Source of the DNA: a virus
DNA: 27,438 bases
IMG/VR virus record: IMGVR_UViG_3300031841_001960
Location: 1 to 27,438 of that record
Strand: one strand, 5' to 3'
In this document: positions 1,613-27,438 of the stretch, one piece after another
How the letters are laid out: the number at the start of each line of letters is the position of its first letter
How positions within the stretch are numbered: position 1 is the first letter of the stretch
Notes under the pieces: generated by a model
The model's input: the letters and a program-made list of their open reading frames with translations, nothing else
Database searches by the model: none
Told to the model about the DNA's origin: nothing
Made by a program: the position numbers and the translations under genes

Positions 1613-1754
1613 GATGTGCCAGAAGGTAGGCTGGCTGGCCGGTGCGATCGCAGAGACGTTGTGTGCTGATTATGGCGACCAGGTGGAGCCGAGCGAGATC
1701 GCGAATCTGGCGGTCGAGTGCTACATGGACTGTTGGAAGGAAGTGCATGGCTGA
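1431..1754 (+). CDS. Small unknown protein overprinted on the terS tail
   Basis: A 107-residue protein (MSDLLKGPEN...) of no recognised family. The ATG at 1431 has GGAG at 1420-1423, 7 bases upstream. Its first 182 bases overlap the end of terS in another frame. Hand counting over the shared 60 codons gives 47 codons ending in G or C in this frame against 27 in the terS frame; the phage's other genes strongly favour G/C there, so this frame looks like the selected one. The C-terminal half (KVGWLAGAIAETLC, then a VEPSEIANLAVECYMDC segment) reads as an ordinary folded helical domain. Its end overlaps the terL start by 8 bases (ATGGCTGA). A role in packaging is only suggested by position. Confidence 0.7.
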   Translation: MSDLLKGPENSQLEVGPPCRVNVRLMQNRDGVQWANVQVHSRRKPDLCRQGNVRLSGTTTEMCQKVGWLAGAIAETLCADYGDQVEPSEIANLAVECYMDCWKEVHG

Positions 1755-4269
1755 CATCATTCCGGTGGACCGGAAGGTGTACTGGGAGCCTCGCGAAGAG
1801 GGCCTACGACCGGTCACCTACAACCGCAAGAGCGGAGAATACGAGGACGTAGTCTGGACGCCGCTTGGTGGGTCACAGGATGCGTTTCTCCGGTGTGGGC
1901 TTCTTGAGGTGTTGTTTGAGGGTACTCGTGGGCCGGGCAAGACCGATGCGTTGCTGATGGATTTCGGTCAGTTTGTGGGGAAGGGGTATGGGCCGGACTG
2001 GCGTGGGATTCTGTTTCGCCGGACGTACCCTGAGCTGGGCGACGTGATTGCGAAGTCGAGGAAGTGGTTCCCGCAGATATTTCCGGGAGCGAAGTACAAT
2101 GCTGGGGAGCATTACTGGACGTTCCCGGAAGGTGAGACGTTGTTGTTTCGGCACTTCAAGCAGCCGGACGACTACTGGAACTATCACGGCCATGCTTATC
2201 CGTGGATTGGGTGGGAGGAGTTGACGACATGGCCCACGCCCGAGTGTTACACGTCGATGTTCAGTTGTGCTCGTAGTGCGAATCCGACGATACCGATTCG
2301 GGTAAGGAGCACGACGAATCCGTATGGTTGTGTGCCGTATGGGGACGTGTTGACCGTAGGCCGTGGGTGGGTGCGGATTGAGGATGTTGAGGAAGGGGAG
2401 AGGGTGTGGAGCGTGGGCCGTGATGGTGGTCTGGTGAGTGCGGAGGTCGGCGCGGTTATTCGGAAGCGTTGGTCTGGGCGAATGGTGTCGCGGAAGGGGA
2501 GGGGTCTGGAGATGGTCTTTACTGAGGACCATCGTTTTCCGGTGATGTGTGGGTCTCGCGAGCGTGGTCATCGGCTGGAGCGGTTCGATGAGATGGCTGG
2601 GTGCGTGTCGGTTCGGAGGACGTGTCGTCCGGCGGCGGGTGGTCGGTCGGATGGTCCGCAGTATTTCTATCCGACTGATCCGAGTTTGAGTGAGGGTCAG
2701 CGGCAGCCGGTCTTTCGGTTGACGGCGTTGCAGTATGCGAGGCTGATGGGGTGGGCGATTTCTGAGGGGTACGCGACACGTCGGAAGACGTTTCGGATTT
2801 GCCAGCAGAAGGAAGAGAATCGTCCGCAGATCGAGGCGTTGCTGGATGATTGCGGGTTCCTGTGGAACTACAACGGGCGGGAGTACGACATCAGTGAGGC
2901 TGCGTGGGCGGCTGAGGTCGAGCGTCTGGGCTACAGTCATCAGAAGCGGATACCACGGGAGCTGCTGGAGTGTGGGACGGACGTGTTGCGGGAGTTGCTG
3001 GATGCGTTGTTCTTCGGTGACGGGAGCCGCAACGTGTACTACACGTCGAGCGAGGGGCTGGCGAACGACGTGGCCGAGGTGGGCATTCGGCTGGGCTATT
3101 CGGTGTATATGACGGAGCGGCACAGCGGCTGGGAGGTGATGTTGTCACATCGCGACGTGGTGCAGTTGCGGACGGGGAATCGGATCAGGGCTGGGGAGAA
3201 TCGGGACAAGTCGGTGAACTGCACGTTCGAGGAGTTCGAGGGTCAGGTGTATTGCCTGTCGGTGCCGGAGACGGAGACGTTTTTCATACGGCAGGGCGGG
3301 TGCGTGTGGTTGAGTGGGAACAGTGGTCACAGTTGGGTGAAGCATCGGTGGCGGTTGCCCGTGGGGCGGGATCGGATGTTTGGCGAGGTGATCACGGACT
3401 CGCTGGACAAGAACGGTGACGTTGAGCCGCCGCGTGTGGCGGTGCATGGGCACATTCAGGAGAACCACGTTCTGCTGTATGCCGACCCCGGTTACATCGC
3501 GCGGATCAGGAGTGCGGCGCGGAACCATGCGGAGCTTGAGGCGTGGTTGAACGGCTCGTGGGACATTGTGGCTGGGGGGATGTTCGACGACGTGTGGGAC
3601 CGGAACGTGCATGTGATGCCGGACATTCCGCTGGGGATGATTCCCGAGGGGTGGCGGATTGATCGAAGCTACGACCACGGGCAGAGTCGGCCATTCAGTG
3701 TGGGCTGGTGGGCCGAGAGCAATGGTGAGCCGATCAAGGTCAACAATCGGTTGTATGGGGCAGTGCGTGGCGATCTGTTTCGGATTGCCGAGTGGTATGG
3801 CTGGACGGGCGAGCCGAACACGGGTGCCCGGTTGCTGTCGAGTGAGATCGCGAAAGGGATACTTGAGCGTGAGGAGCAGTGGGGTATTCGTGGCCGGGTG
3901 AAGATTGGCGTAGCGGACGGATCAATCTTCGACCATTATGAGCCGGGTCTGAGTGTTGTTGGCGAGATGCGTAAGCAGGGACTCGACTGGTATGCGGCGG
4001 ACAAGAGTTCGGGAAGCCGCAAGCAGGGCTGGCAGCAGATCAGAGAGCGGATGAAGGCGAGCTTCCCCGGCGAAGAGGGGGTGCGGGAAGAGGCCGGGTT
4101 GTTTATTCTTGAGTCGTGCGATCAGTTTCTGCGGACGGTGCCGGTGTTGCCACGGTCGGATCGCGACCTTGACGACGTGGATACTGATGCTGAGGATCAC
4201 ATTGCGGACGAGGTGCGATACCGGGTTCGTTTCAAGACCAGACGGATTCGTCGAGGTAGTTGGAAATGA
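1747..4269 (+). CDS. terL: Terminase large subunit, intein-containing
   Basis: An 840-residue precursor; removal of the 331-residue intein leaves about 509 residues, the normal size for TerL. It is the ATP-driven DNA packaging motor and headful/cos nuclease, docking on the portal. Seen: Walker A GTRGPGKT at residues 59-66, Walker B YPWIGWEE at 151-158, coupling motif TTNPYG at 189-194, then the intein (195-525), then extein SGHSWVKHRW. The RNase H-like nuclease half carries acidic positions in DRSYDHG, VKIGVADGS and DTDAEDHIADE. ATG 1747 is chosen over upstream starts because GGAAGGAAG lies just before it and the residues before it are out-of-family. Stop and portal start share ATGA. The family is the Terminase_6 type, by motif; strong G-ending codon use is seen throughout. 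Confidence 0.95.
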   Translation: MADIIPVDRKVYWEPREEGLRPVTYNRKSGEYEDVVWTPLGGSQDAFLRCGLLEVLFEGTRGPGKTDALLMDFGQFVGKGYGPDWRGILFRRTYPELGDVIAKSRKWFPQIFPGAKYNAGEHYWTFPEGETLLFRHFKQPDDYWNYHGHAYPWIGWEELTTWPTPECYTSMFSCARSANPTIPIRVRSTTNPYGCVPYGDVLTVGRGWVRIEDVEEGERVWSVGRDGGLVSAEVGAVIRKRWSGRMVSRKGRGLEMVFTEDHRFPVMCGSRERGHRLERFDEMAGCVSVRRTCRPAAGGRSDGPQYFYPTDPSLSEGQRQPVFRLTALQYARLMGWAISEGYATRRKTFRICQQKEENRPQIEALLDDCGFLWNYNGREYDISEAAWAAEVERLGYSHQKRIPRELLECGTDVLRELLDALFFGDGSRNVYYTSSEGLANDVAEVGIRLGYSVYMTERHSGWEVMLSHRDVVQLRTGNRIRAGENRDKSVNCTFEEFEGQVYCLSVPETETFFIRQGGCVWLSGNSGHSWVKHRWRLPVGRDRMFGEVITDSLDKNGDVEPPRVAVHGHIQENHVLLYADPGYIARIRSAARNHAELEAWLNGSWDIVAGGMFDDVWDRNVHVMPDIPLGMIPEGWRIDRSYDHGQSRPFSVGWWAESNGEPIKVNNRLYGAVRGDLFRIAEWYGWTGEPNTGARLLSSEIAKGILEREEQWGIRGRVKIGVADGSIFDHYEPGLSVVGEMRKQGLDWYAADKSSGSRKQGWQQIRERMKASFPGEEGVREEAGLFILESCDQFLRTVPVLPRSDRDLDDVDTDAEDHIADEVRYRVRFKTRRIRRGSWK
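2329..3321 (+). mobile_element. Intein with LAGLIDADG homing endonuclease in terL
   Basis: A 331-residue in-frame insertion that should excise itself and ligate ...TTNPYG to SGHSWVK. Seen, in intein numbering: Cys1 (CVPYGDVLT, block A); TEDH at 65-68 (block B T-x-x-H); LMGWAISEGYA at 139 and LLDALFFGDGSR near 224, the two LAGLIDADG motifs, with acidic E146 and D231 kept; block F VYCLSVPETETFF; block G ending SGN followed by Ser+1. The usual block F His is Glu here, and the penultimate His is Gly; block F position 4 is Cys rather than Asp. The insertion lies in the conserved coupling motif of the ATPase, a classic intein niche. The endonuclease looks intact, so homing may still occur. The boundaries are firm because the flanks rejoin to a typical TerL sequence. 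Confidence 0.93.
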
Positions 4270-5681
4270 AGAAGGCCGGACCTGACACGGTATCGTCGGC
4301 GTACTCACACATGGCCCCGCTGTGGGACAAGATCAGCTCGGTGCTTGGCGGCACGGAGACGATGCGTGCATCGGGGACGATGTATCTGCCGCAGCACGAT
4401 CGTGAGAGCAACGCGGCCTACGACGAACGGCTCAATCGGACCATTCTGATCAACACAACGGAGCAGACCCTGAACGGCTGGGTGGGCAGACCATTCAGCA
4501 AGCCGATGCAGGTGAACGCGAACATTCCCGACGAGCTGGCGATGTTGCTGGAGGACGTGGACCGTCAGGGGAACGACCTCGACGTGTTCTGCCGCAACTG
4601 GTTTCGGGACGGTCTGGCGAAGGGTTTCAGTCATGTGCTGGTGGACTTCCCGGCATTGCAGGGCGATGGCCCGAGGACGCTGGCGGATGACCGGGCTGCC
4701 GGGCTGCGTCCGTACTTTGTGCATTTGCCGCCGGAGAATGTGATTGCGGCCCATGCGGAGATGGTGAACGGTGTCGAGACGCTGACTCACGTTCGGGTGC
4801 ATGAGCAGGAAGTAGTGCGGGACGGGTTTGAGGAAATGGTGGTCGACCGGATTCGGGTTTACGAGCCGGGGCTGGTCGAGGTGTACGAGAAGCGTGGGAC
4901 GAAGGGCCGCGAGGAGTGGGTGGTTGTCGAGAGTTACAACTACGACCTGCCGTACATTCCGATCGTGACGTTCTACGCCCAGCGTGACGGCTTCATGGTG
5001 AGCAAGCCGCCGCTGCTTGATCTCGTGAACATGAACATTGCCCACTGGCAGAGTCAGTCGGATCAGACGGCGGTGTTGACGGTCGCGCGGTTTCCGATGC
5101 TGGCGTCGTCGGGGATGATGGACGACGACGAGGTGGTGGTTGGTCCGAACCAGTGGCTGGCGACCCGCGATCCGCAGGGCCGGGTCTATTACGTCGAGCA
5201 CAGCGGCAAGGCGATCAACAGTGGGCGGATGGACCTGCTGGACCTTGAAGAGAAGATGGCGAAGTACGGGGCGGAGTTCCTGACGAAGAAGCCTGGGCGT
5301 CAGACGGCGACGGCGAGGGCACTTGATTCGGCGGAAGCGATCAGCCCATTGCAGGACATGACGCATCGGTTCGTCGACTCGGTCAATCTGGCGATGCAGT
5401 ATGCGTCGGACTGGCTCGGCATCGAGTCGGGCGGAACGGTGGACCTGCACACGGACTTTGGGCTGAGCAGTTCTGACGCAGGAGCCTTGACGGCATTGAC
5501 CGAAGCGAGGAGAAGTCGGGACATCTCACGCGAGACATACCTGCGTGAGTTGCAGCGATACAACGTGTTGGACAGGTCGTTCGACATTGACGTTGATGGT
5601 GAATCTCTGCGTGACGAGCAGTCGTACGCTGGGCTTTCGACACAGATTCTGGTCGAGGAGGATGACGATGAAGGTGTTTGA
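4266..5681 (+). CDS. Portal protein (DUF4055-like)
   Basis: A 471-residue protein expected to form the dodecameric ring at one capsid vertex, through which DNA passes and to which TerL and the neck bind. The N-terminal pattern (HMAPLWDKISSVLGG, then MYLPQHDRES..AYDERLNR, then TEQTLNGWVGRPFSKP) matches the DUF4055 group of phage portals. The central part has a beta-rich wing and the C-terminal third is helical with LTEARRSRDISRETYLREL typical of portal stems. The start is ATG 4266, sharing ATGA with terL, preceded by GAGGTAG; a TTG two codons earlier is less likely. The next gene begins inside its last 14 bases. Identification rests on family pattern and position directly after terL. Confidence 0.9.
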   Translation: MKKAGPDTVSSAYSHMAPLWDKISSVLGGTETMRASGTMYLPQHDRESNAAYDERLNRTILINTTEQTLNGWVGRPFSKPMQVNANIPDELAMLLEDVDRQGNDLDVFCRNWFRDGLAKGFSHVLVDFPALQGDGPRTLADDRAAGLRPYFVHLPPENVIAAHAEMVNGVETLTHVRVHEQEVVRDGFEEMVVDRIRVYEPGLVEVYEKRGTKGREEWVVVESYNYDLPYIPIVTFYAQRDGFMVSKPPLLDLVNMNIAHWQSQSDQTAVLTVARFPMLASSGMMDDDEVVVGPNQWLATRDPQGRVYYVEHSGKAINSGRMDLLDLEEKMAKYGAEFLTKKPGRQTATARALDSAEAISPLQDMTHRFVDSVNLAMQYASDWLGIESGGTVDLHTDFGLSSSDAGALTALTEARRSRDISRETYLRELQRYNVLDRSFDIDVDGESLRDEQSYAGLSTQILVEEDDDEGV

Positions 5682-6006
5682 GAACGGTGTGTATCCCGGC
5701 CAGCGGCACGCATATGTCGAAGGCTCGGCCAACGCAACAACAACGCTGACGATCACGGCTGATGCGAGTCATTTCTGGACTCTGGAGCAAGTGACGTTTT
5801 CAGCGGACACTGACCCGGACTCCGGCGTTACGCTGACGATCACGATCGGCTCAACGGTCGTGTTCAAGCATTTCATCACGAAGAGTGGCCCAGGTCCGAT
5901 CCCGTTGAGCGGGCTGGCTCGCGGCGTGAAGAACGAAGCTGTTACGATCACCGCCTCGGCGGCGGGGACCGGCAAGAAGGTCAATCTGAGTGCTGTCTAC
6001 AGGTAA
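5668..6006 (+). CDS. Small beta-rich protein, possible virion component
   Basis: A 112-residue protein (MKVFENGVYPGQRH...) rich in Thr, Ser and Val with alternating hydrophobic strands (NATTTLTITADASHFWTLEQ; GVTLTITIGSTVVFKHF; EAVTITASAAGTGKKVNLSA), consistent with a small beta-sandwich or jelly roll. GAGGAGG at 5655-5661 is 6 bases before ATG 5668; an in-frame ATG at 5662 would be too close to it. The first 14 bases overlap the portal end. Its place between portal and the glycosyltransferase suggests a capsid decoration or other virion protein, possibly the target of the downstream enzymes, but no family is recognised and this is inference. Confidence 0.8.
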   Translation: MKVFENGVYPGQRHAYVEGSANATTTLTITADASHFWTLEQVTFSADTDPDSGVTLTITIGSTVVFKHFITKSGPGPIPLSGLARGVKNEAVTITASAAGTGKKVNLSAVYR

Positions 6007-6014
6007 GGTGCAAA

Positions 6015-6884
6015 ATGCCATACGAGGATACTGCGTTGGGCGGCAACTCAGGGACGAGTGGCCTGGTGGCGAATCACGATGATTCGCTGGTGTCTGTGCA
6101 GAAGGAAGTAGGCGGCAGGCGGAAGAAGTATGCGGTGGTCTGTCCGCACGCCGGGAAGACATTCTGCTTCCCGGAGTTTCGGAAGACGCTGTATCAGCTT
6201 CCGTTGAACGAGTGCCATGTCGTGCTTTACGACAACTCTCAGTCGAAGAAGCACAGTGCGAAGCTGAACACGCTGAGCCGGGCGTTGCCGTCGTTCACGC
6301 TGATCAAGGACGATAACAAGCCGGAGTCGATCGAAAGCAGCATGGACTTTCGCGTGATCGTCGCACGTTGCAGTGCGGTGTATCAGCACATCTACGAGAA
6401 CCATCTGCCGAAGAAGTCGGACTACGTCATCAATCTTGAGGACGACGTGCTCGCCCCGCCGGGCGGATTCAATCGCCTCAAGGGAGTTCTCGACACTTAC
6501 GACGACGTGGGCACGGTGGTCGGCAACTGCCGTGATCGTCGCGTGAAGGTGATGAACGGCGAGGCACAGCCGATCGCCGTGAACTTCAGAAAGACGCAGA
6601 AGATCGGCGGAACGGGAGAGGTTCAATACGAAGTGCTGGGCGTCCACGAGAAGGAGTTCGGCGTTGAGTGGATCGGCGCGGCTCACATGGGGCTGTGGCT
6701 GGCTCGACGTGAGTGTGTTGATCTGGTCGGAATGCAGACTCTTCCCGAGGGGCAGGGGATGCCCATCGGGCATGACATTCAGTACGGCCTACGGCTTAAC
6801 GAATCCGGGTGGAAGTTCGCTGTGGACTGGTCCGTAAAGCTGGACCACTACTACATGCAGAACGGCGAGGTCTTGAGCGTTTGA
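6015..6884 (+). CDS. Glycosyltransferase, GT-A (family 2-like)
   Basis: A 289-residue enzyme expected to move a sugar from a nucleotide-sugar to an acceptor in the cytoplasm. Seen: a Rossmann-like opening (YAVVCPHAGKTFC; NECHVVLYDNSQ), an acidic DxD-type metal site YVINLEDDVLAPPG with EDD at 142-144, an acceptor-side GHDIQYGLRLNESGW at 252-266, and a late metal-ligand-like His in KLDHYY at 278. This is the GT-A layout. AAGG at 6005-6008 precedes ATG 6015. The stop TGA shares its A with the ATG of the methyltransferase (TGATG). The enzyme sits between portal and head morphogenesis genes. Virion protein glycosylation is the simplest hypothesis; surface-sugar or DNA modification are alternatives. 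Confidence 0.85.
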   Translation: MPYEDTALGGNSGTSGLVANHDDSLVSVQKEVGGRRKKYAVVCPHAGKTFCFPEFRKTLYQLPLNECHVVLYDNSQSKKHSAKLNTLSRALPSFTLIKDDNKPESIESSMDFRVIVARCSAVYQHIYENHLPKKSDYVINLEDDVLAPPGGFNRLKGVLDTYDDVGTVVGNCRDRRVKVMNGEAQPIAVNFRKTQKIGGTGEVQYEVLGVHEKEFGVEWIGAAHMGLWLARRECVDLVGMQTLPEGQGMPIGHDIQYGLRLNESGWKFAVDWSVKLDHYYMQNGEVLSV

Positions 6885-7798
6885 TGCGATATCAAACCTT
6901 CGATGAATCTGATCGCGGATCGTCTGACTCTCAGGGCAAGTTTACTGCTCTGCGAATGGATCGCTCTGTTTTCAAAGACGCCCGTGTGCTGGACCTCGGT
7001 TGCAACGAGGGCTACTTCTGCGGCAAGGCGTTGGAATACGGGGCGAAGCGTGTAGTCGGGATTGATCTGAGTCCCGATTTGATCGCATCAGCGAAGACAC
7101 GTTTTCCGGCGGCAGAGTTTCTGCACCAGAGCTGGGACCACGGCTGGCCTGCGGGCAAGTGGGACGTGATCCTGATGCTGTCGGCGTTTCATTATGTGGA
7201 GTCGCCGGATGCACTGCTGTGCCGGATTCGGAACAGTCTTTCTGACAAGGGCGTGTTCATTCTTGAGTGCGGCGTTGTCGGGATGGATGGTCCCGGCTGG
7301 CAACGGGTAACTCGGGGCGATGGAAGCACGGTCGGCTACACGAGCAGCCGTGGCCTGCGGCAGCTTCTGAACCGGAACGGCCTGACCTGTCGCGACCTGG
7401 GCGAGTCCGTGAAACAGCAAGGCGATCCGATCCCTCGGCGGGTGATTCGTTGCAGCCTGAAACGGCGAACGATTGTTCTGGTTGCTGGCGACAGCATGGA
7501 CGGCAAGACCTCGCTGTGCGAGGAGATGGGCCTGCCGTACTTTTCGGTCGATGCGTTTTCTCGTCGTTCGATCTGGTTCGACAGGGCGAAGTGGACGAAG
7601 GAGGCACAGGGGCCGAACCTGTCGCCATTCTACGAGAAGATGTCTGGCCGTGAGGACTTTCTGGAATCGTTGTTCCTGAGTCTGCCGAACGACCCCGTTG
7701 TTGTTGTTGACATCATTGAGCCGCTGGCCAGTCAGTTTTCGCAATACATCAAAGACCGCACCTCGGACATCGTCTGGGAGCTGAAAAAAAGTGCCTGA
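6884..7798 (+). CDS. Class I methyltransferase fused to a P-loop domain
   Basis: A 304-residue two-domain protein. Residues about 1-190 are a class I SAM-dependent methyltransferase: motif I VLDLGCNEGYF at 35-45, VVGIDLSPDLI at 57-67 with the acidic ribose-binding Asp61, WDVILMLSAFHYVES at 93-107, and the GVFILECGV strand at 123-131. Residues about 195-304 start with TIVLVAGDSMDGKTS, a perfect Walker A (GxxxxGKT, 202-209), and end with VVVVDIIEP at 272-280, resembling a small-molecule or nucleoside kinase. The start is ATG 6884, coupled to the glycosyltransferase stop. The substrate is not visible. An alternative reading is that the second domain is a degenerate ATPase. It overlaps the next gene by 8 bases and ends in an A7 run. 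Confidence 0.85.
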   Translation: MRYQTFDESDRGSSDSQGKFTALRMDRSVFKDARVLDLGCNEGYFCGKALEYGAKRVVGIDLSPDLIASAKTRFPAAEFLHQSWDHGWPAGKWDVILMLSAFHYVESPDALLCRIRNSLSDKGVFILECGVVGMDGPGWQRVTRGDGSTVGYTSSRGLRQLLNRNGLTCRDLGESVKQQGDPIPRRVIRCSLKRRTIVLVAGDSMDGKTSLCEEMGLPYFSVDAFSRRSIWFDRAKWTKEAQGPNLSPFYEKMSGREDFLESLFLSLPNDPVVVVDIIEPLASQFSQYIKDRTSDIVWELKKSA

Positions 7799-9020
7799 CG
7801 CCAATCAGGAATATCTGGACCTTCAGATACGGTATCAGCACCGGCTACGTCGTCTGGCGAGCCGCATTCTGGGCCGTTCGATAGAACTGGTGTCGCTGTC
7901 TGATCGTCAGCTACTTCAGAGGATTCGTCGCAAGCTGCCGCCGACTCGGCGTGGCAAGTTTGATTTTGCGTCGAAGCGATATCTGGAGCTGATGGAAGAG
8001 TTGCGGCGGTTGCGTGAGCGGCAGTTGCGGGAAGCGTGGGAAGCGTCCCGCAAGGAGATGAAAGAGCTGGCCTACGCTACTCAGGATACGGAAGAGGAGC
8101 GGACGCTTTTCGTTCTGCCTGTGAAGATACCGATCGCGAGGGTTCCGCCGACGATCGTGCTGTCGGTGTTTGAGGAACCATTCGCGGGTGGTCCTGTCGA
8201 GGCCCGGACGTTTCCTCAGTGGCTGGCTTCGATTCAGGCGGCGGACTTCGACCGGATTCAGGCTACGGTACAGAGTGGTCTGCTTGAGGGTGTTGCGGTT
8301 GCCGAGATCGTTCGTCGTCTGGCGGGGACGAAATCGCAGGGGTATTCAGATGGCGTTCTGGCGGGGACGCGGCGTAACTTTCAGGCGGTGTTGACTGCTG
8401 GAATCACTCACGTTCACAACAGTGTTTCGGAGAAGCTGTGGACGAAGAACCCGGATGTGTACCGCTTTCTGCAATGGGTGAGTGTTCTGGATGGGCGAAC
8501 TTCTGCGATATGCCGTGCGAGGGATGGCAAGTTTGCTCCGATCGGTGGAAACAAGCTCCCGGCAGGCGTGCCGCCGTTGATTCCGCCGAGCGTACGACCG
8601 CCAGCTCATCCGAACTGTCGGTCGATGGTTGTTCCGGTCTTCGATGCACGGGGACTGGCTGCGATTGTTGGTGAGCGTCCTTTCGTTCGCGAAACGTCGA
8701 AAGACGAATACAAGAAGATCAATTTCAGGCAGCGTGCCAAAGATTCCATAGGTGGCCGTGTCTGGGGCGGTATGTCTGCCGAGGATCGGCAGCGTGCCGT
8801 GGATGCGGTTCGTGACAAATGGCTTAGGGATCGGATCGGAACGGTTCCGTCCGACCTTACCTACGACGGATGGCTGCGTCGCCAGCCCGTCGAATTCCAG
8901 AACGAGGTTCTGGGCCGCGCGAAGGCGGTGTTGTTTCGTAAGGGACTGAAGATTGATCGGTTCGTCGATCGAGGCGGTCGAGAGCTTTCAGTTCCTGAAC
9001 TCAGAAAGCTGTTGGAGTAG
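7791..9020 (+). CDS. Minor head/head morphogenesis protein (Mu gpF-like)
   Basis: A 409-residue minor capsid protein of the Mu gpF / SPP1 gp7 group, which joins the head interior and assists assembly or DNA ejection. The N-terminal third is helical, highly charged and Arg-rich. The family core lies about 229-280: WVSVLDGRTSAICRARDGK and RPPAHPNCRS with the paired Cys/His. The C-terminal part has SAEDRQRAVDAVRDKW and the TYDGWLRRQPVEFQ...LG segment seen at the end of many gpF-like proteins. The start is GTG 7791 with GGGAG at 7776-7780 ten bases before it, overlapping the previous stop by 8 bases. Its position before the scaffold is normal. Confidence 0.9.
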   Translation: MPDANQEYLDLQIRYQHRLRRLASRILGRSIELVSLSDRQLLQRIRRKLPPTRRGKFDFASKRYLELMEELRRLRERQLREAWEASRKEMKELAYATQDTEEERTLFVLPVKIPIARVPPTIVLSVFEEPFAGGPVEARTFPQWLASIQAADFDRIQATVQSGLLEGVAVAEIVRRLAGTKSQGYSDGVLAGTRRNFQAVLTAGITHVHNSVSEKLWTKNPDVYRFLQWVSVLDGRTSAICRARDGKFAPIGGNKLPAGVPPLIPPSVRPPAHPNCRSMVVPVFDARGLAAIVGERPFVRETSKDEYKKINFRQRAKDSIGGRVWGGMSAEDRQRAVDAVRDKWLRDRIGTVPSDLTYDGWLRRQPVEFQNEVLGRAKAVLFRKGLKIDRFVDRGGRELSVPELRKLLE

Positions 9021-9023
9021 CAT

Positions 9024-9821
9024 ATGTTTGAGTTCTCGCAGAACACGGAGATGGAGAGTCTGGATTCGGTGCCGGAGAACTTCCGGGTTTTCTACAAGCA
9101 GAGCGATTCTGGTGAGGGATATCGGCTGAATTCTGATGACCCGGCCACGTCTGCGGCGGTGTCCACGATCACCGGACTGGCAAAGAGCCTGAAGGCGGCA
9201 CGAGCGGATGCGGACAGCTACCGAAAGCAGCGTACTGACCTGAGTGCGTTGTCCGAGTATGGTGATTCGCCGGAAGCGATTGCCGAAGCGTTTCGAGGCA
9301 AGCTGGGCGAGCTTGAAAAACAGATCAGTGAAGGATCACAGGCAAAGGTTGATATCGAGAGGATTCGTGAAGACCTGAGCAAGTCCCACAGCAAGGAGCT
9401 GGAAAAGCGGGACACCCTTGTGCAATCACTGAAGGACCAGCTCTACTCCAACCTTGTTCTTTCTGAGGCGACGACTGCGATCGCGGCTCAGAAGGGCGTT
9501 GCCGAACTGCTGATGCCGTTCGTGCGTGAACGAGTGCGTGCCGTCGAGGAAGACGGCAACCTTCGAGTCTACGTCGTCGACAACGAAGGCAATCGACGCT
9601 ACTCGGGCACGACCGGCGAGGCGATGAGCATTCAGGAGCTTGTCTCCGAGATGAAGGGCAACGCTCAGTTCGGTCGTCTTTTTGAGTCAGAGGCTCCGTC
9701 AGGAACTGGAACGAATCCGGCTCCGCAGCGGCGATCGGTGACTCCGGCGGCTGAGATGACATCTGTTGACAAGATTGCGGCAGGTCTGCGGAAAGGACAG
9801 TTCAGCCGACCTGGGCAATAA
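9024..9821 (+). CDS. Capsid scaffolding protein
   Basis: A 265-residue protein with a long helical, charged coiled-coil centre (about 45-145: SLKAARADADSYRKQR; KLGELEKQISEGSQAKVDI; KSHSKELEKRDTLVQSLKDQ) and a flexible Ser/Pro/Gly-rich C-terminal tail. This build and its place right before the capsid gene fit a scaffold that directs procapsid assembly and is later lost. No separate prohead protease lies in the window, so removal would be by exit or by an enzyme encoded elsewhere. GGAG at 9014-9017 precedes ATG 9024, and the stop is TAA at 9819-9821. No specific scaffold family is claimed with certainty; the N-terminal 40 residues resemble GP20-type scaffolds. Confidence 0.82.
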   Translation: MFEFSQNTEMESLDSVPENFRVFYKQSDSGEGYRLNSDDPATSAAVSTITGLAKSLKAARADADSYRKQRTDLSALSEYGDSPEAIAEAFRGKLGELEKQISEGSQAKVDIERIREDLSKSHSKELEKRDTLVQSLKDQLYSNLVLSEATTAIAAQKGVAELLMPFVRERVRAVEEDGNLRVYVVDNEGNRRYSGTTGEAMSIQELVSEMKGNAQFGRLFESEAPSGTGTNPAPQRRSVTPAAEMTSVDKIAAGLRKGQFSRPGQ

Positions 9822-9955: not shown

Positions 9956-10876
9956 ATGGCATCGGTTACGCTTACGGAATCGGCCAAGCTGGCCCAGAAC
10001 GAACTCGTCGCGGGGATCATCGAAAACATCATCACCGTCAACCGGATGTACGAAGTGCTTCCGTTCGACGGCATCGACGGCAACGCTCTGGCGTACAACC
10101 GGGAGAACGCTCTCGGTAACGTCGACGTTTACGACGTTGGTGACACGATCGCCGCGAAGGCTGCTGCGACCTTCACTCAGGTCACCAGCACCCTGACGAG
10201 CATCATCGGTGATGCGGAAGTCAACGGCCTGATTCAGCAGACTCGTTCCGGTTTCGGCAACGATCAGACTGCTGTTCAGATCGCCTCGAAGGCCAAGTCG
10301 GCTGGTCGCAAGTACCAGGACATGCTGGTCAACGGAACTGGAGCATCGAATGAGTTCAGCGGCCTGCTGACTCTGCTCGATGGTGGCCAGACCGTCTCGG
10401 CTGGTGACAACGGTGCTGCTCTGTCGCTGACGGACATGGACGAAATGCTCGATCTGGTCGTCGACAAGGACGGTCAGGTTGACTACATCACCATGAACGC
10501 TCGTCCGCTGCGGTCCTACATGGCCCTGCTGCGTGCTCTGGGCGGTGCTTCGATCAGCGAAGTCATCACTCTGCCTAGCGGCAATCAGGTTCCCGCATAT
10601 CGCGGCGTTCCGATTTTCCGCAACGACTACCTGCCGATCGACCAGACGAAAGGCACGGAAACGGCTGCTACGACAATCCTCGCCGGTACGCTGGACGATG
10701 GTTCTCGTCAGCACGGCGTTGCCGGTCTGACCGCAGCCAACATGGCTGGCATTCAGGTCGTCGACGTGGGTGAATCGGAAACGAAGGACGAGCACATCTG
10801 GCGTATCAAGTGGTACTCCGGCCTCGCGTGCTTCAGCCTGAAGGGTCTCGCTGGCCTCAACGGCGTCAACAACTAG
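9956..10876 (+). CDS. Major capsid protein (HK97 fold)
   Basis: A 306-residue main shell protein. It opens with MASVTLTESAKLAQNELVAG and contains the usual parts of this compact group: an N-arm (about 1-40), the extended loop region (about 45-75, with ALAYNRENALG), a spine helix (SKAKSAGRKYQDMLVNG), and C-terminal beta strands (VPAYRGVPIFRNDYLPI; DEHIWRIKWYSGLACFS). Length and layout match small unprocessed HK97-like capsid proteins, and no delta domain is visible, matching a separate scaffold. Codons are mostly C- or G-ending with CGT and CTG preferred, unlike the G-ending style of terL, as expected for a highly expressed gene. It has its own promoter and terminator. Confidence 0.92.
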   Translation: MASVTLTESAKLAQNELVAGIIENIITVNRMYEVLPFDGIDGNALAYNRENALGNVDVYDVGDTIAAKAAATFTQVTSTLTSIIGDAEVNGLIQQTRSGFGNDQTAVQIASKAKSAGRKYQDMLVNGTGASNEFSGLLTLLDGGQTVSAGDNGAALSLTDMDEMLDLVVDKDGQVDYITMNARPLRSYMALLRALGGASISEVITLPSGNQVPAYRGVPIFRNDYLPIDQTKGTETAATTILAGTLDDGSRQHGVAGLTAANMAGIQVVDVGESETKDEHIWRIKWYSGLACFSLKGLAGLNGVNN

Positions 10877-21151: not shown

Positions 21152-21870
21152 AAAAGCTGATCCTACATGGTGCATTAGCCGAGGAATTCGGCCCTGAGTT
21201 CACGATGTCCGTCAGGAGCGTGGCTGCCGCCATTCGGCTGATGGAAGCCAATTTCAATGGCCGTTTCTCGAAGGCTCTGGAAACCGGCTGGTTCGTGATC
21301 AGCACGCCAATTCGGCCACAGGGCATGTGCGAAGACGAGCTTCAGATGCTGACCAGTGCCGACGAGATTCACATTCGTCCGGTGGCGGCAGGCGAACTGA
21401 AGGGCTTTCTGGGACTGCTTGGCGGAGCTGGGGCCGGTGGCTTTCTGGGTGGTATATTTGCTCCGTTCGGGATCGGTGCCGGAGTTGCTGGAGCGGGTGC
21501 AACTGGCGGCTTTCTTGGCCTGGGTGCTGGCGGTGCGTTGGGCGGCTTTGGGTCGATTATTCTCGGCCTCGGCTTCCTGGGCATTCTCATGCTGATCTCT
21601 TCGGCACTGGCTCCGAAGAACGAAGAGAAGGGCGAGCCTGCCGAGCGGCCCAGCTTTCTGTTTGATGGGCCGGTCAACACGAACGAGCAGGGCGTTGCCG
21701 TGCCGATCGTTTACGGCAGGATGCGAACCGGCTCCGTGATCATCTACGGCGGACTGGCATCAGAGCGAATCATCCGCACTGGCGATACTGCTACTGATGC
21801 GGACGGTGCCAAGTTCTCGCTGTTGACCAAACCAGCCCTCAAAACATCCTTCGGTGCGGTAGTTGTATGA
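21148..21870 (+). CDS. Tail assembly protein I
   Basis: A 240-residue protein of the lambda gpI family, needed for tip assembly but usually not kept in the final tail. The N-terminal ubiquitin-like part (about 1-80: MKKLILHGALAEEFGPEF; VRSVAAAIRLMEANF; ADEIHIRPVAAG) precedes a long Gly/Ala-rich hydrophobic stretch (about 85-150: GAGAGGFLGGIFAPFGIGAG; ILGLGFLGILMLIS), and then a C-terminal part with GVAVPIVYGRMRTGSVII. The start is GTG 21148 with AGGAG upstream. The stop shares ATGA with J. The family call is supported by both sequence and position. Confidence 0.92.
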   Translation: MKKLILHGALAEEFGPEFTMSVRSVAAAIRLMEANFNGRFSKALETGWFVISTPIRPQGMCEDELQMLTSADEIHIRPVAAGELKGFLGLLGGAGAGGFLGGIFAPFGIGAGVAGAGATGGFLGLGAGGALGGFGSIILGLGFLGILMLISSALAPKNEEKGEPAERPSFLFDGPVNTNEQGVAVPIVYGRMRTGSVIIYGGLASERIIRTGDTATDADGAKFSLLTKPALKTSFGAVVV

Positions 21871-24800
21871 GCAAGCCCATCATCTCGGGTGCGGGCAAGG
21901 GCGGAAGCCAGCGTACGCCGAAAGAGCATCCGAATACGCTTCAGGCCCGCAGTGTCGCGAAGATCATTGATCTGATCAGCGAAGGTCCGATCTACGGACT
22001 GGCACGAACTGCCGACGATCCGCTTCGTTCGATCTTCATGGACGACACGCCGGTCAAGAATGCGGACGGGTCGCTCAACTATGAGGGCGTCGATGTCTAC
22101 GAGCGATTCGGCACTGAGGATCAGGGATCAATGCCGGGCTTTGCTCAGGTGGAGACTGAGCAGTCTGTCAACGTAACGCTCACTAAACAGAATCCCGTTC
22201 TGTTTACGATCGACAATTCCAACGTCAAGCAGATTCGTCTCAAGGTTCGTCTGAACTCACTCTACAAACAGAACACGAAAAACGGCGACGTTGAACCGAC
22301 CTCGGTGAAGATCAAGATAGAACTGGGGTCCAGCGGTGATTCCGGGGCGTCTTCCGTTGACGATATACCGCTCACCGCAGGCGTTGACACCGTAACTGTG
22401 ACAGAGCAGGGAGAGGGCTACACGACAGCACCGACCGTCAACTTCGTCGGCGGGGATGGCTCGGGAGCCGCAGCTACGGCAACGATTACGGACGGGAAGG
22501 TCACGTCGATCACCGTCACCAGCCCCGGCTCGGGCTACACAGAACCACCAAGAATCTCGTTTTCGATGCCCAGTGGGGCGTACGACAAGGAAGCAACTGC
22601 GGAATGCACGCTGCTGCCCACCGGCGGCTCCGGTTACACGGCAGCAACGACAGTTACGCTCACAGGTGGAAGCCCCGACGTGGTGGCCACGGCAGTGCCT
22701 GAGATCGAGGACGGCGTCATCAAGAACATCTGGCTTACGACCGGCGTGGCCAGCATTCGCATCGACGATCCGGGCATGGGCTACGATCCGGCCACTGTGG
22801 CAATCTCTCTTTCCGGTGGCGGCGGTACGGGAGCAGCAGCATCGCTTACTCTGGACGATCTCGGATCGGTCGAGTCGATCACAGTCACTAATTCAGGAAG
22901 TGGCTACACAGAGGCCCCTACTGTTGACATCACGGGGCATCTGGGTGAGGAGAATCCTCGTGCGCAGTTTATTCATTTTATCTCAGGAATCCGCAATGCT
23001 GAGGCAACGGCCATCGGCAAACTGGCTGGCGGCTCCGGGTACACGTCGGCTCCAACGGTCGTGATCAGTGACTCCGGCGGCGGCACTGGGGCGACGGCGA
23101 TCGCCAAAGTCAGCCCATATCACATCTATGGCGGCGAGATCACGATCAGCGGCAAGACGGTCGGTGCATACGAGGAATCCTACTTCATTGATCTGGAAGA
23201 ATTCTCAAACCGCCTTGTCGAGGCTGGGCTTCCCGCAGCCGCGTATCCAATCACGGTCAGGGTGAGCCGACTAACCGAAGACAGTGAGTCGGCCACGGTT
23301 CAGGACACGCTCGCAGTTTCGACCTACACTGAGATCCAGCCCTACAACCTGAGATACCCAGACAGTGCTCTGATTGGGCTTATCGTCGATGCTCAGAAGT
23401 TTGGCGGAAACGTCCCACGTCGAAGTTTTGACGTTCTCGGAAAGCTGGTCGACGTTCCAACTGGCTATGAGGCAGAAAACACTGAGGGAGAGCGTCGGTA
23501 TCCCGACTTCTGGGACGGCACCTTTGAGCAGAGGTGGAGCAACAACCCGGCGTGGGTCATGCTGGACCTGCTGACCAATGAACGGTATGGACTTGGGCTT
23601 GATCGGGACACGGACATTGACGTGTACTCGCTCTACTCGATCGCAAAATACTGCGACGAGCTTGTCCCGGTCGTAACGATCGACGCTGCGGGAGTGAAGC
23701 AGGAATCGTACGAGTACCGTTACGTCTGCAACACAACGATCAATTCACGCAGGGAAGCGTATCAGGTACTTCAGGCGATCGCGTCATGCTTCCGTGGCAT
23801 GGTCTACGCATCAACTTCGGGAGTCGCGTTCAGTCAGGACCGTCCCAAAGACCCGGTGCGGCTGGTCGCTCCGGCTGACGTGATCGACGGCAACTTCACC
23901 TACAGCTCCACGTCACGCAAGGCACGGCATTCCGTGGCCCTGATCACATGGAATGATCCCGACGACAACTACAAGCAGGCGGTCGAGGTCTACGAAGACC
24001 TCGATCTGATTGACCGCTACGGGTACAACCCGATTGAGGTCGTGGCCTACGGCACAACCTCTCAGTCGCAAGCCCGCCGCATGGGCAAGTGGATTCTGGA
24101 CTCCGAGAAGCACGAAACCGACACGGTTACGTTTCAGGGCGGTCTGGACTTCATCGACCTGATGCCGGGCGACATCATTGCTGTCGCTGATCCGATGAAG
24201 CAGAACAGTCGGCTCGGCGGCAGAATTATGAACTACTCGTTCGAGTCACTGACTCCATCGGGCACTGTTACGTCAACGACGACATCCGGCTCCGCGATCG
24301 GCAGTCTGGACTACACGACGAATGCAGTCTTCGAGTGCGTGGTCAAGATCGACCCGAACGTGCAGCCGACTGGCTGCATCTGGGAAGTTGGCAACAGCAC
24401 TACCGGAGCCTATCTCGGGTTCGACACCGCTGGTGGGCTGGTCCTGCGTGCGGGCTACGGCGGATCGGACTTCGAGGGTAATCCAAACGACATTGCCCGG
24501 TTGGTTATTCCGTATGCGAAGCTGGCCGTGGGCCGTCAACTGACTCTGTTGGCACACATTGATCCGGCTGGCCGAGTCCGTCTGTGGGGCAACAGCCAGT
24601 TCCTCGGTGAAGCGTCCACGGCTGACGGCTCATCGTTCGGCGGAACGTGGGCAGCATCCAGTGGTGCGAAGTACGGTGGATCGTCCGGCGACATCGTTGC
24701 TGGCGAAGTGGCAACAGACACGAACATCACTCTGGTCAGCGACCTGAGCTACTGGGACGGCGGCGTTGTCCGAACGGTCATTCAGACATTCACGCTGGAC

Positions 24801-27438
24801 CAGCAGTTTGTCGACGGCGATACGATCACGACGACAGAGATTCCGCTGCTCGATCGTGGTGCTGACGCCACGTTTGAGTGCTCGTTCAAGACGCCCGCAA
24901 GCGGGACGACGCCCACCGGGCTGATCGCTGAGCTGGGCAATGGGTCGAGCAGTGCGACCGAAGGCATGTATGTCGGCTTCGACGCCGAGGGCAATCTCGT
25001 CATTCATGCGGGAGAGGGCGTTTCGGTTATTTCGGATGGTGCCGCCTGTCGCGTGACGGTTCCGGCGGCGTTCTTTGCGGCGGACGCTCAGTATCACCTG
25101 TTGTGGTCGATCTCACCGACTACAGGTCGGCTGCTTGTCTGGGTCGATTGGGAATTCTACGCCTCGTCGAACTCACCAGGCGGTCTCAAGAATCAACGGT
25201 TCGCGGATGCTGAGGATGGTGGCTACGGAGTCCTGTCCTCGAACACGGTTGTCGATCAGGTCACGACGGCATTCAACGGCACACTGCTGACTCCGTTGCG
25301 ATATTACGGTGGAGAGGCCGCGAGCTACGAACAGGCTCCGTATGGGACGATCACGCTGGACGCACCGTACTCAGTGCAGGACGGCGACAAGATCATGTTT
25401 ATGACCCGCGAGATGCTGATCGACACGGTCGATCTCAAGGCGGGAACAACAACTGCCGTGGTCAAGCTCGGAAAACGCCCAACCGGCGAGCCGATCACCG
25501 ACGCGATGTACGTCATTCAGGCGGCTGCTGCCAATGCCAAAGAGTACCGTGTGCTGAGTCTGCGTGAGGTCGAGCAGGCCAAGTACGAAGTCACGGCACT
25601 GGAGTACGACAAGACGAAGTTCGCCAGAATCGAGCAGGACATTCTTGTCGATCGGCCCTCGACCGACCTGTTCCCGAAAGGTGCCGTTACTCCGCCTACG
25701 GAACTCAGCTACATCGAGTCGCTGTATCGAACTGCAAGTGACGTTGCGACACGAATCGACCTGAGCTGTCTTCCGTCAACCGATCCGCGTGTAACGGCGT
25801 ACCAGTGGGACGTGAGCGGTCCTCTGCAACGTGCTGCCGATGGGACTCAGGAATATCTGCCGCTGATCACACACTCGTCGCCATTCGCGACGGTGCTGGA
25901 TGCGGTCCCCGGAATATGGAAGTTCCGGGTGACTGCTCTGGCTGGCGGAACGAAGTCGGTCATCTCGCCGCCGCTGGAGCTGTCTAATGTAACGATCTAC
26001 GGCAAGCAGTTGCCGCCGGAAGACGTGACTGGGCTTCTTGCCCTGCGAGGCTTCTCGAAGATCCGATTGAAGTGGAATCCTGTCACCGACCTCGACCTGC
26101 GTGACTATGTCATCATTCAGGACACGTCCTGGCCTGACGACCTTTCGACGGCATCCCCGGTCTACAGCAATTCAACTGACATCACGATCGACGTTGATAC
26201 GACTGCCGACATCACGTTTCTGGTCAAGGCCCGCGACACGAGTGGCAACCTCAGTTCGACGGCGGCTTCGATCACTGCTCAGGTACTGAGCCTCGGGGCA
26301 GTGACGAACCTCACTGCTCACGGCGTCTACAGCAGCCAGTCGTACTATTCGGCGGACGCAAGGTTGTCGTGGGAGCCACTCAGCATTCGCAACGAAGTCG
26401 TGTCCTACGAAGTCCGGGCCACTGACGAACTGGAAGACTCTCTGCCCGGCGGCGCGTGGGATGATCTCCAGACGCGGCTTGAGACGACTGATCCGCAGGG
26501 CTTGATCAAGGTTACTCTTGAGGACGCTACGGCGACGACGTATGAGTTCAAGGTCCGTCCGTTTGTAAGTCTTGCCAACGGCTCACGAAATTACGGGACT
26601 GAGAGTTCGGTCCAGCGGTTGATGAATCCCGGTAACGGGGCATCTCACAAGATTCAGGACGAGCATACGACATGGTCCTACCTGCCCAGCAATGAGGCGC
26701 AGGCATTTATTGAGTGCGGCGTCGGCGCAGACCAGTCAACGCCGCAGGACGGTCTCGTCTATGCCGCGTACGGAGCAGGCTGGCGATCTGGTGACATCAC
26801 CGGCACGGACGAGTTTGACCGACGATCCAGCGGCGTCTGGGCCGTCACGATTCAGGTCGCCAACTGGAGCACTGTCCGTGGCTGCCTGTTCGAGATGGGT
26901 AACTCAAACAAGGGCTGCTACCTCGGATTTGACGGCGGCGGGAATCTGGTCTGGCGTGCGGGCGCGAACAATTCAACGCCCACAGATTACGCCCGGTCCA
27001 CGATCACGAACGCGACTCTATCTGCGGCGATTTCGACGGGAACAGACTTCACGATTGTCTGCGACGTGCGAAACGACGGCACGAACTCAGGCCGTGCCCG
27101 CCTGTGGGTCATTCACGCAGGCGGTGTGATCACTGCGACTCCCGGAGAGACGAGTGATGCTTCGGCGTTCGCGAACCAGACGTGGGCCACTAATCGCGAC
27201 GGGAAAGTGAATGGCTACTTCGAGTCGATCATAAGTGGGGAATCTGCCGGGTATGCCTACACGCCGACCAGTTACGGTGTGACCTATTCATCCGAAGTCG
27301 AATACTGGCACGACGTACTCGTGCAGTCTCCGTTGTCAGTCAGCAGCGGAAAGCTGCTGATGGCCGAAGGCATCACGTTCGCCAAGTACACCTACGACTT
27401 CGATCTGAACAACGTCCACAGCGGCGAGGTCAACTACC
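21867..27438 (+). CDS. Tail tip attachment protein J (partial, runs off edge)
   Basis: At least 1857 codons, open to the window's last base. It is the central fibre that recognises the host receptor. Seen: J-type opening (about 1-165: QARSVAKIIDLISEGPIYGL); six GYT repeats (about 172-410); the conserved core at 488-791 (YTEIQPYNLRYPDSALIGL; WDGTFEQRWSNNPAW; QDRPKDP; LMPGDIIAVADP); two LamG-like modules (about 810-1150); fibronectin III-like domains (about 1275-1590: RGFSKIRLKWNPVTDLDLRD); and a third LamG-like module (about 1653-1815). Lambda J is 1132 residues, so this one is much larger. ATG 21867 shares ATGA with I and has only a weak ribosome site, suggesting coupling. The C-terminal receptor-binding end lies beyond the window. 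Confidence 0.95.
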   Translation, partial: MSKPIISGAGKGGSQRTPKEHPNTLQARSVAKIIDLISEGPIYGLARTADDPLRSIFMDDTPVKNADGSLNYEGVDVYERFGTEDQGSMPGFAQVETEQSVNVTLTKQNPVLFTIDNSNVKQIRLKVRLNSLYKQNTKNGDVEPTSVKIKIELGSSGDSGASSVDDIPLTAGVDTVTVTEQGEGYTTAPTVNFVGGDGSGAAATATITDGKVTSITVTSPGSGYTEPPRISFSMPSGAYDKEATAECTLLPTGGSGYTAATTVTLTGGSPDVVATAVPEIEDGVIKNIWLTTGVASIRIDDPGMGYDPATVAISLSGGGGTGAAASLTLDDLGSVESITVTNSGSGYTEAPTVDITGHLGEENPRAQFIHFISGIRNAEATAIGKLAGGSGYTSAPTVVISDSGGGTGATAIAKVSPYHIYGGEITISGKTVGAYEESYFIDLEEFSNRLVEAGLPAAAYPITVRVSRLTEDSESATVQDTLAVSTYTEIQPYNLRYPDSALIGLIVDAQKFGGNVPRRSFDVLGKLVDVPTGYEAENTEGERRYPDFWDGTFEQRWSNNPAWVMLDLLTNERYGLGLDRDTDIDVYSLYSIAKYCDELVPVVTIDAAGVKQESYEYRYVCNTTINSRREAYQVLQAIASCFRGMVYASTSGVAFSQDRPKDPVRLVAPADVIDGNFTYSSTSRKARHSVALITWNDPDDNYKQAVEVYEDLDLIDRYGYNPIEVVAYGTTSQSQARRMGKWILDSEKHETDTVTFQGGLDFIDLMPGDIIAVADPMKQNSRLGGRIMNYSFESLTPSGTVTSTTTSGSAIGSLDYTTNAVFECVVKIDPNVQPTGCIWEVGNSTTGAYLGFDTAGGLVLRAGYGGSDFEGNPNDIARLVIPYAKLAVGRQLTLLAHIDPAGRVRLWGNSQFLGEASTADGSSFGGTWAASSGAKYGGSSGDIVAGEVATDTNITLVSDLSYWDGGVVRTVIQTFTLDQQFVDGDTITTTEIPLLDRGADATFECSFKTPASGTTPTGLIAELGNGSSSATEGMYVGFDAEGNLVIHAGEGVSVISDGAACRVTVPAAFFAADAQYHLLWSISPTTGRLLVWVDWEFYASSNSPGGLKNQRFADAEDGGYGVLSSNTVVDQVTTAFNGTLLTPLRYYGGEAASYEQAPYGTITLDAPYSVQDGDKIMFMTREMLIDTVDLKAGTTTAVVKLGKRPTGEPITDAMYVIQAAAANAKEYRVLSLREVEQAKYEVTALEYDKTKFARIEQDILVDRPSTDLFPKGAVTPPTELSYIESLYRTASDVATRIDLSCLPSTDPRVTAYQWDVSGPLQRAADGTQEYLPLITHSSPFATVLDAVPGIWKFRVTALAGGTKSVISPPLELSNVTIYGKQLPPEDVTGLLALRGFSKIRLKWNPVTDLDLRDYVIIQDTSWPDDLSTASPVYSNSTDITIDVDTTADITFLVKARDTSGNLSSTAASITAQVLSLGAVTNLTAHGVYSSQSYYSADARLSWEPLSIRNEVVSYEVRATDELEDSLPGGAWDDLQTRLETTDPQGLIKVTLEDATATTYEFKVRPFVSLANGSRNYGTESSVQRLMNPGNGASHKIQDEHTTWSYLPSNEAQAFIECGVGADQSTPQDGLVYAAYGAGWRSGDITGTDEFDRRSSGVWAVTIQVANWSTVRGCLFEMGNSNKGCYLGFDGGGNLVWRAGANNSTPTDYARSTITNATLSAAISTGTDFTIVCDVRNDGTNSGRARLWVIHAGGVITATPGETSDASAFANQTWATNRDGKVNGYFESIISGESAGYAYTPTSYGVTYSSEVEYWHDVLVQSPLSVSSGKLLMAEGITFAKYTYDFDLNNVHSGEVNY
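22380..23105 (+). repeat. Six GYT-type repeats inserted in J
   Basis: The pattern G-x-GYT/D-x-A/P-P/T...TV recurs as GEGYTTAP, GSGYTEPP, GSGYTAAT, GMGYDPAT, GSGYTEAP and GSGYTSAP, each with a following Gly-rich loop such as GGGGTGAAA. The block interrupts a region that in lambda J is continuous: it follows VKIKIELGSS and precedes YGGEITISGKTVGAYEESYF. Repeats of this kind are common in phage structural proteins as small beta modules. Confidence 0.88.
24294..25315 (+). repeat. Tandem pair of LamG-like modules in J
   Basis: Two modules of about 155 residues share a core: IWEVGNSTTGAYLGFDTAGG followed by LVLRAG in the first, and LIAELGN...GMYVGFDAEGNLVIHAG in the second, each preceded by a strand with FECVVKI or FECSFKT and ending in a SYWDGG or YYGGEA segment. 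The pattern is that of concanavalin/LamG jelly rolls, which often bind sugars. They sit directly after GGRIMNYSF, the point where lambda J continues with its own short strand region. Confidence 0.75.
26815..27320 (+). repeat. Third LamG-like module in J
   Basis: This module repeats the core of the earlier pair: CLFEMGNSNKGCYLGFDGGG then LVWRAG, preceded by GVWAVTIQVANW and ending in a VEYWHD segment. It follows the fibronectin-like domains rather than the conserved J core, so the same module has been used at two separate sites of one protein. Confidence 0.75.

Follow-up and report, generated by a model that had tools for sequence, protein, structure and literature searches.

Described systems and the head module of the window

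To our knowledge, few systems of virion glycosylation have been demonstrated in phages, mainly in mycobacteriophages. The locus described here is best compared with that of Corndogvirus (cluster O: Corndog, Catdawg, Firecracker, and Dylan), the virions of Corndog being glycosylated (PMC4351075, PMC12363180). Between its portal and capsid protease genes, Catdawg harbors an O-methyltransferase gene together with three glycosyltransferase (GT) genes, while Firecracker and Dylan carry, in the same interval, an O-methyltransferase gene followed by GT genes; the products of this block have been put forward as candidates for decorating the capsid with methyl and glycan groups (PMC4351075). Corndog gp38, encoded within the portal-protease block, is reported to be essential for capsid glycosylation in the passage of PMC12363180 which cites Freeman et al. 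2023. In A064R of the chlorovirus PBCV-1, a viral GT-A enzyme is likewise joined with a methyltransferase; the capsid glycan of this virus is thought to be capped by methylation, and variation gives rise to antigenic types (PMC5408694).

The window analyzed here (W) is the whole of the 27,438-base virus record IMGVR_UViG_3300031841_001960, a 27-kb fragment; a near-identical phage (L001; 99.7 to 99.8%) is present in IMGVR_UViG_3300032086_001397. Its left part encodes TerS (848-1612), TerL (1642-4269; with an intein-like insertion), and, on the plus strand, a portal protein (DUF4055; phrog_145, E 8.5e-131; 4260..5681), a small beta-rich protein of 112 amino acids (5668..6006), a GT of 289 amino acids (6015..6884), a methyltransferase/P-loop fusion protein of 304 amino acids (6884..7798), and a MuF-type head morphogenesis protein (phrog_241, E 3.2e-82; 7791..9020), followed by the scaffold (9024-9821) and the major capsid protein (MCP; 9956-10876). 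The homologous TerL, portal, MuF, scaffold, and MCP genes occur in the same order in the Mesyanzhinovviridae, the nearest named relatives, of which Yuavirus MP1412 and Vojvodinavirus CN2 share 54% (portal), approximately 71% (MCP), 44 to 46% (scaffold), and approximately 35% (MuF) identity with W. The slot between portal and MuF in these two phages is occupied only by a short open reading frame (ORF) or a homing endonuclease gene, whereas in W it holds the enzyme cassette; likewise, their terminase lacks the intein-like insertion of the W TerL.

This insertion spans TerL residues ~229 to 562 (~334 amino acids), begins with a Cys, and ends with an Asn preceding a Ser. Homologues (34 to 77%) were found in contigs L009 to L015 and L017, while no match was obtained in L006, L007, L016 (in which TerL is partial), L025, or L115. 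At the left end of the window, positions 1 to 468 adjoin the terminus with GC-rich tandem repeats built of 11-, 20-, and 35- to 39-base units, the arrangement of which is shifted in L001. At the right end, a single frame remains open for ~1,880 codons (~21870-27438) and probably encodes a large tail protein truncated where the record stops.

The genes of the cassette are tightly packed, in that the start of the small beta-rich gene lies within the portal gene, the GT and fusion genes share a TGATG, and the fusion and MuF genes overlap by 8 bases. Contig L018 likewise keeps a one-base GT/fusion stop/start overlap (TAATG) and an 8-base overlap before MuF. Judged from the DNA, such overlapping starts and stops resemble those of a translationally coupled operon. 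A preliminary description of this DNA had placed two coupled modification enzymes between the portal and the head morphogenesis genes, an assignment which is confirmed here with one correction. Both ORF 6015-6884 and ORF 6809-7798 are present in W, and position 6809, from which the second gene had been read, falls within the GT gene; the second gene most likely begins at the ATG at 6884, a start which L018 shares.

Predicted structure of the glycosyltransferase

No Pfam family matched the GT above threshold, the best being Glyco_tranf_2_3 at E 0.24, which is below the cut-off. A structure was therefore sought by modeling: the AlphaFold2 model built from 11 relatives had a pLDDT of 70 and a pTM of 0.75, with low confidence across residues 174 to 223 and very low confidence across the first 18 residues, a tail which is thus probably flexible. 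Foldseek returned COLGALT1 as the best match (E 5.5e-7), and VIA-align gave Z scores of 16.3 to Mnn9, 16.2 to PcManGT, and 15.6 to SpsA; across GT-A enzymes, Z scores of 14 to 16 extended over ~175 to 225 residues. The fold is thus the same as that of GT2 (SpsA) and of the COLGALT1 and LH3 GT-A domains, at an identity of ~10 to 12%, with no CAZy family being assignable. A DxD-like acidic motif, EDD (E142-D143-D144; 6438..6446), presumed to form the metal/nucleotide-sugar site, is invariant in 11 GT sequences. The product of 6015-6884, as modeled, is a protein of GT-A fold, which bears out the class that had been assigned to it at the outset.

The first 27 codons (6015..6095) comprise a flexible G-x-S-G tail and an HD(D/E)xLVSV segment, a region in which the upstream exchange joint described below is located; a GxSGxSG tail precedes even the unrelated N-terminal GT of contig L015. 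Neither the GT nor the fusion protein contains a strongly hydrophobic segment, which fits the expectation for cytoplasmic enzymes.

Scans of IMG/VR with the portal and GT sequences retrieved 11 viral contigs bearing this GT family. Isolated phages yielded no match and plasmids a single weak partial match, while a search with the GT alignment of 84,980 bacterial and archaeal genomes, by a pattern scan which can miss distant relatives, found none. L002 and L003, which had been returned by the first GT scan, were discarded, the matches being chance similarities of 22 residues in contigs with no GT gene.

The methyltransferase/P-loop fusion protein

The N-terminal part of the second enzyme is clearly a class I S-adenosylmethionine (SAM) methyltransferase domain (approximately residues 20 to 190), as indicated by a Methyltransf_23 profile match above the cut-off (E 2.3e-15), the SAM-binding motif DLGCNEGY (6992..7015), and a fold match with a Z score of 11.5. 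The C-terminal domain (7463..7798) contains a Walker A motif, GDSMDGKTS (residues 202 to 210; 7487-7513), as well as FSVD and VVVVD motifs, of which the Walker A and the hhhhD-type VVVVD motifs are kept in L018 and L021. No family was recovered for this domain by sequence, profile, or PDB searches or from the whole-protein model, for which the fold matches listed all fall in the methyltransferase part; on its motifs, it may be described as kinase-like. The fusion initially proposed is firm in its methyltransferase half by Pfam and by fold, while its P-loop half is recognizable by motifs and belongs to no assignable family. Streptococcus phage proteins were rejected as relatives of the fusion protein since the matches span the N-terminal methyltransferase half only.

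Comparative anatomy of the portal-MuF site

A survey of the gene neighborhood, as had been suggested in the preliminary description, recovered the same gene set elsewhere and revealed an exchange locus among the relatives. Following the portal gene, W and L018 harbor the small beta-rich gene, the GT gene, and the fusion gene, an order repeated with a different GT allele in L021, a contig which begins within the beta-rich gene and extends to MuF; the fusion gene is thus paired with two GT types. Contigs L010, L011, and L013 carry the beta-rich and GT genes between portal and MuF without the fusion gene, while in L009 the same two genes follow the portal gene before the contig ends inside the GT gene, leaving the downstream part unseen. 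In L012, likewise between portal and MuF, the beta-rich and GT genes are followed by a sulfotransferase-like ORF, and in L015 the beta-rich gene is followed by a double GT, the downstream half of which is homologous to the GT described here (hhalign E 1.6e-7) and the upstream half of which belongs to a Pfam family 2 GT (Glycos_transf_2, 5e-30), L015 being the sole relative to match that family. The enzymes are present in 9 of the 11 clade contigs covering the site; in the remaining two, L016 and L115, MuF lies directly 3′ of the portal gene, with neither the beta-rich gene nor enzymes. L115 is an 8,995-bp contig in a Planctomycetaceae bin and represents the nearest match in cellular genomes; it may itself be mis-binned phage DNA.

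Outside this clade, L025 (1-6009) harbors a unit of beta-rich, GT, and sulfotransferase-like genes upstream of the terminase large subunit gene, a sign that the module has changed its place among related packaging regions. Two other phages, L020 and L023, carry the GT gene after small structural-looking genes, such that the context of the GT in these three other backbones is one of packaging, head, or head-tail functions. Neither the GT gene nor the beta-rich gene was found in ~70 more distant portal loci, several of which have a homing endonuclease gene at the site.

The tailoring gene of L012 and L025 encodes AKTGT and VRHP motifs, has no Pfam or NCBIfam match, and gave a single weak match to an annotated sulfotransferase (E 0.07); on the motifs and this match, the product is referred to as a putative sulfotransferase-like protein. 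Separately, prophage CBW1004C-Prop1 (L120; MZ188970.1) has among its head genes one (7025-7555) whose annotation is sulfotransferase family 2; it lies downstream of the terminase genes and of two hypothetical ones, and may provide another case of sulfation within a virion module. A further observation concerns MuF itself, the frame of which stays open for ~1,050 to 1,300 codons in L044, L058, L061, L069, L071, L077, L080, L083, L086, and L087, MuF thus being fused to a large C-terminal part in these relatives.

Exchange of glycosyltransferase alleles

Pairwise comparisons showed the GT to depart from its flanks in identity. L018 and L009 share 99% identity in the portal and 93% in the beta-rich protein, yet 45% in the GT; conversely, L010 and L013 share 76% in the portal and 70% in MuF, while the GTs are 92% identical. 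Between W and L010, identity amounts to 90% (portal), 71% (beta-rich protein), 46% (GT), and 80% (MuF). Sliding identity between L018 and L009 falls from >80% to ~50% near GT codons 30 to 40, and that between L010 and L013 rises near GT codons 26 to 30 and declines again just inside MuF. Evolution of the locus proceeds through the exchange of entire GT alleles; the joints lie near GT codons 26 to 40 and at the start of MuF, and the 27-residue N-terminal segment is kept across the main alleles while the catalytic body is exchanged. Closely related phages would, as a consequence, differ in the glycan made.

In the reliable comparisons, dN/dS of the cassette genes was ~0.09 to 0.25, values for W and L018 being 0.18 (beta-rich gene), 0.23 (GT), and 0.16 (fusion), as expected of coding sequences which are under purifying selection; values for the L021 scaffold, read in a wrong frame, were left aside. 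The cassette ratios, and the fact that independent contigs have the ORFs at this very position, identify them as real genes.

The small beta-rich protein

Seven relatives of the beta-rich protein were identified (59 to 71% identity); searches of PHROG, Pfam, and PDB gave no match, and the protein matches no known decoration protein. Its gene is present in every enzyme-bearing clade contig, is missing from both enzyme-free ones, and has a homologue beside the GT gene in the different backbone of L025, in agreement with the link between the enzymes and the protein encoded at 5668 that had been suspected from W. The small protein of L020 shows weak end-to-end similarity to it (E 4e-4, probability 34%), while those of L023 were considered and found to be unrelated. 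As the constant member of the cassette, lost with the enzymes and accompanying them into another backbone, it is most plausibly the acceptor, for which we regard it as the best candidate; L016 and L115 may both go back to a single loss or to a single ancestral absence, so that the association with the enzymes rests on few independent events.

Proposed function and alternative explanations

We propose, with a probability of approximately 0.6, that the cassette glycosylates a virion protein and caps the resulting glycan. As regards substrate, sugar, capping chemistry, and function, we infer that the GT-A enzyme would transfer a sugar from a host nucleotide-sugar to a virion protein in the cytoplasm during head assembly, the acceptor being most plausibly the co-encoded 112-amino-acid protein, which is a candidate for a decoration protein or one of the head surface, or otherwise the capsid or a different structural protein. 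The fusion protein would then cap the glycan, its SAM domain by methylation and its P-loop domain perhaps by phosphorylation; in the relatives, the position of the fusion gene is taken by the sulfotransferase-like gene or is empty. A multistep sugar modification, as envisaged in the preliminary description, fits the finding that the tailoring gene varies, being of the methyltransferase/P-loop kind, sulfotransferase-like, or absent, and the Corndog group has the same arrangement. The data lend no support to the phosphorylation then suggested, nor to a glycan sited on the capsid or on the beta-rich protein. The antibody evasion once considered is similarly unsupported and makes little ecological sense with a Planctomycetaceae bin as the nearest cellular match.

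As in Corndogvirus, W has overlapping methyltransferase and GT genes in the interval from the portal gene to the following gene of head assembly. The Corndogvirus block differs in that a TylF-type O-methyltransferase gene precedes three GT genes, whereas W has one GT gene followed by a Methyltransf_23/P-loop fusion gene; no small beta-rich gene is annotated in that block, and its head is of the prohead protease type as opposed to the MuF/scaffold type of W. Homology between the enzymes of W and those of the Corndog group was not detected by hhalign (E 0.0076 to 0.32, probability ~5% or less), so that the resemblance is one of position and logic. A064R of PBCV-1 differs from the W enzymes in being a single three-domain protein of an algal virus with an unrelated backbone and host.

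Modification of the phage genome, in which the GT and the methyltransferase/P-loop protein would act on a hydroxymethylated base, has a precedent within the Mesyanzhinovviridae, where thymidine hypermodification involves a dUMP hydroxymethyltransferase and a 5hmdU kinase (PMC11946847); some viral GTs glycosylate DNA, according to Pyle et al. 2024 as cited in PMC12619734, and the P-loop domain might act as a base kinase. We consider this unlikely, because the cassette adjoins head genes and is tied to the small beta-rich protein and because the rapid exchange of GT alleles fits a surface epitope better than a base modification. In addition, L020/G001, the sole long record with the GT (63 kb), has neither a thymidylate-synthase-like nor an HMUDK match (W and its closest relatives being fragments), whereas the cassette-free relative L038/G009 has both. 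Phage GTs which mediate O-antigen conversion are common, and allele exchange looks like serotype switching, such that the enzymes might instead alter a host glycan, for instance in superinfection exclusion by serotype conversion, their late-operon position being accidental. This is unlikely given the late head-gene position, the co-occurrence with the small beta-rich gene, the lack of membrane-like hydrophobic segments in either protein, and the absence from W of a flippase or GtrB-like gene adjoining the GT and fusion genes.

Genes within a head operon can also be unrelated cargo, as illustrated by the homing endonuclease gene which fills the same slot in Yuavirus MP1412 and related contigs, and two clade members lack the cassette altogether. 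That the cassette is a selfish element which entered a permissive portal-MuF junction and serves no function in the virion is nevertheless improbable in view of the purifying selection, the gene overlaps, the persistence of the cassette across most of the clade, and the fact that replacements are repeatedly other sugar-modifying enzymes as opposed to random genes. Compatible with virion glycosylation, and a sub-case of it, is the possibility that the acceptor is another virion protein, such as MCP, the tail tube, or the GxSGxSG tail of the GT itself, the beta-rich gene then being no more than a linked structural gene. Mycobacteriophage glycans are carried on the C termini of capsid and tail tube proteins (PMC12619734), and the flexible G/S/T-rich tail is kept across exchanged GT alleles, while the beta-rich gene stays constant as the enzymes around it change, being lost with them and moving with them to another backbone; an acceptor other than the beta-rich protein is accordingly possible yet somewhat doubtful.

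Implications for phage particle decoration

Returning to virion glycosylation as the preferred reading, the most likely role of the cassette would be to change the surface of the particle, in relation to attachment, grazing, or defense, and the changing tailoring gene suggests a sugar capped by methyl, perhaps phosphate, or by sulfate. The new element is the exchange locus, with its changing tailoring enzymes and small partner protein. We tentatively suggest that it may operate as a switch of glycan type, in which a small dedicated acceptor is held constant, the catalytic body of the GT is replaced while the N-terminal tail before it is conserved, and capping is interchangeable (methyl/phospho, sulfo, or none), such that the particle surfaces of related phages would differ in a serotype-like manner.

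Sulfotransferase-like or kinase-like capping would be new for phage particles in the literature searched. The natural allele swaps between near-identical flanks, along with the cassette-free relatives, render the role of the glycan directly testable, and the occurrence of unrelated enzymes at the same genomic position in an unrelated lineage points to convergent evolution of particle decoration.
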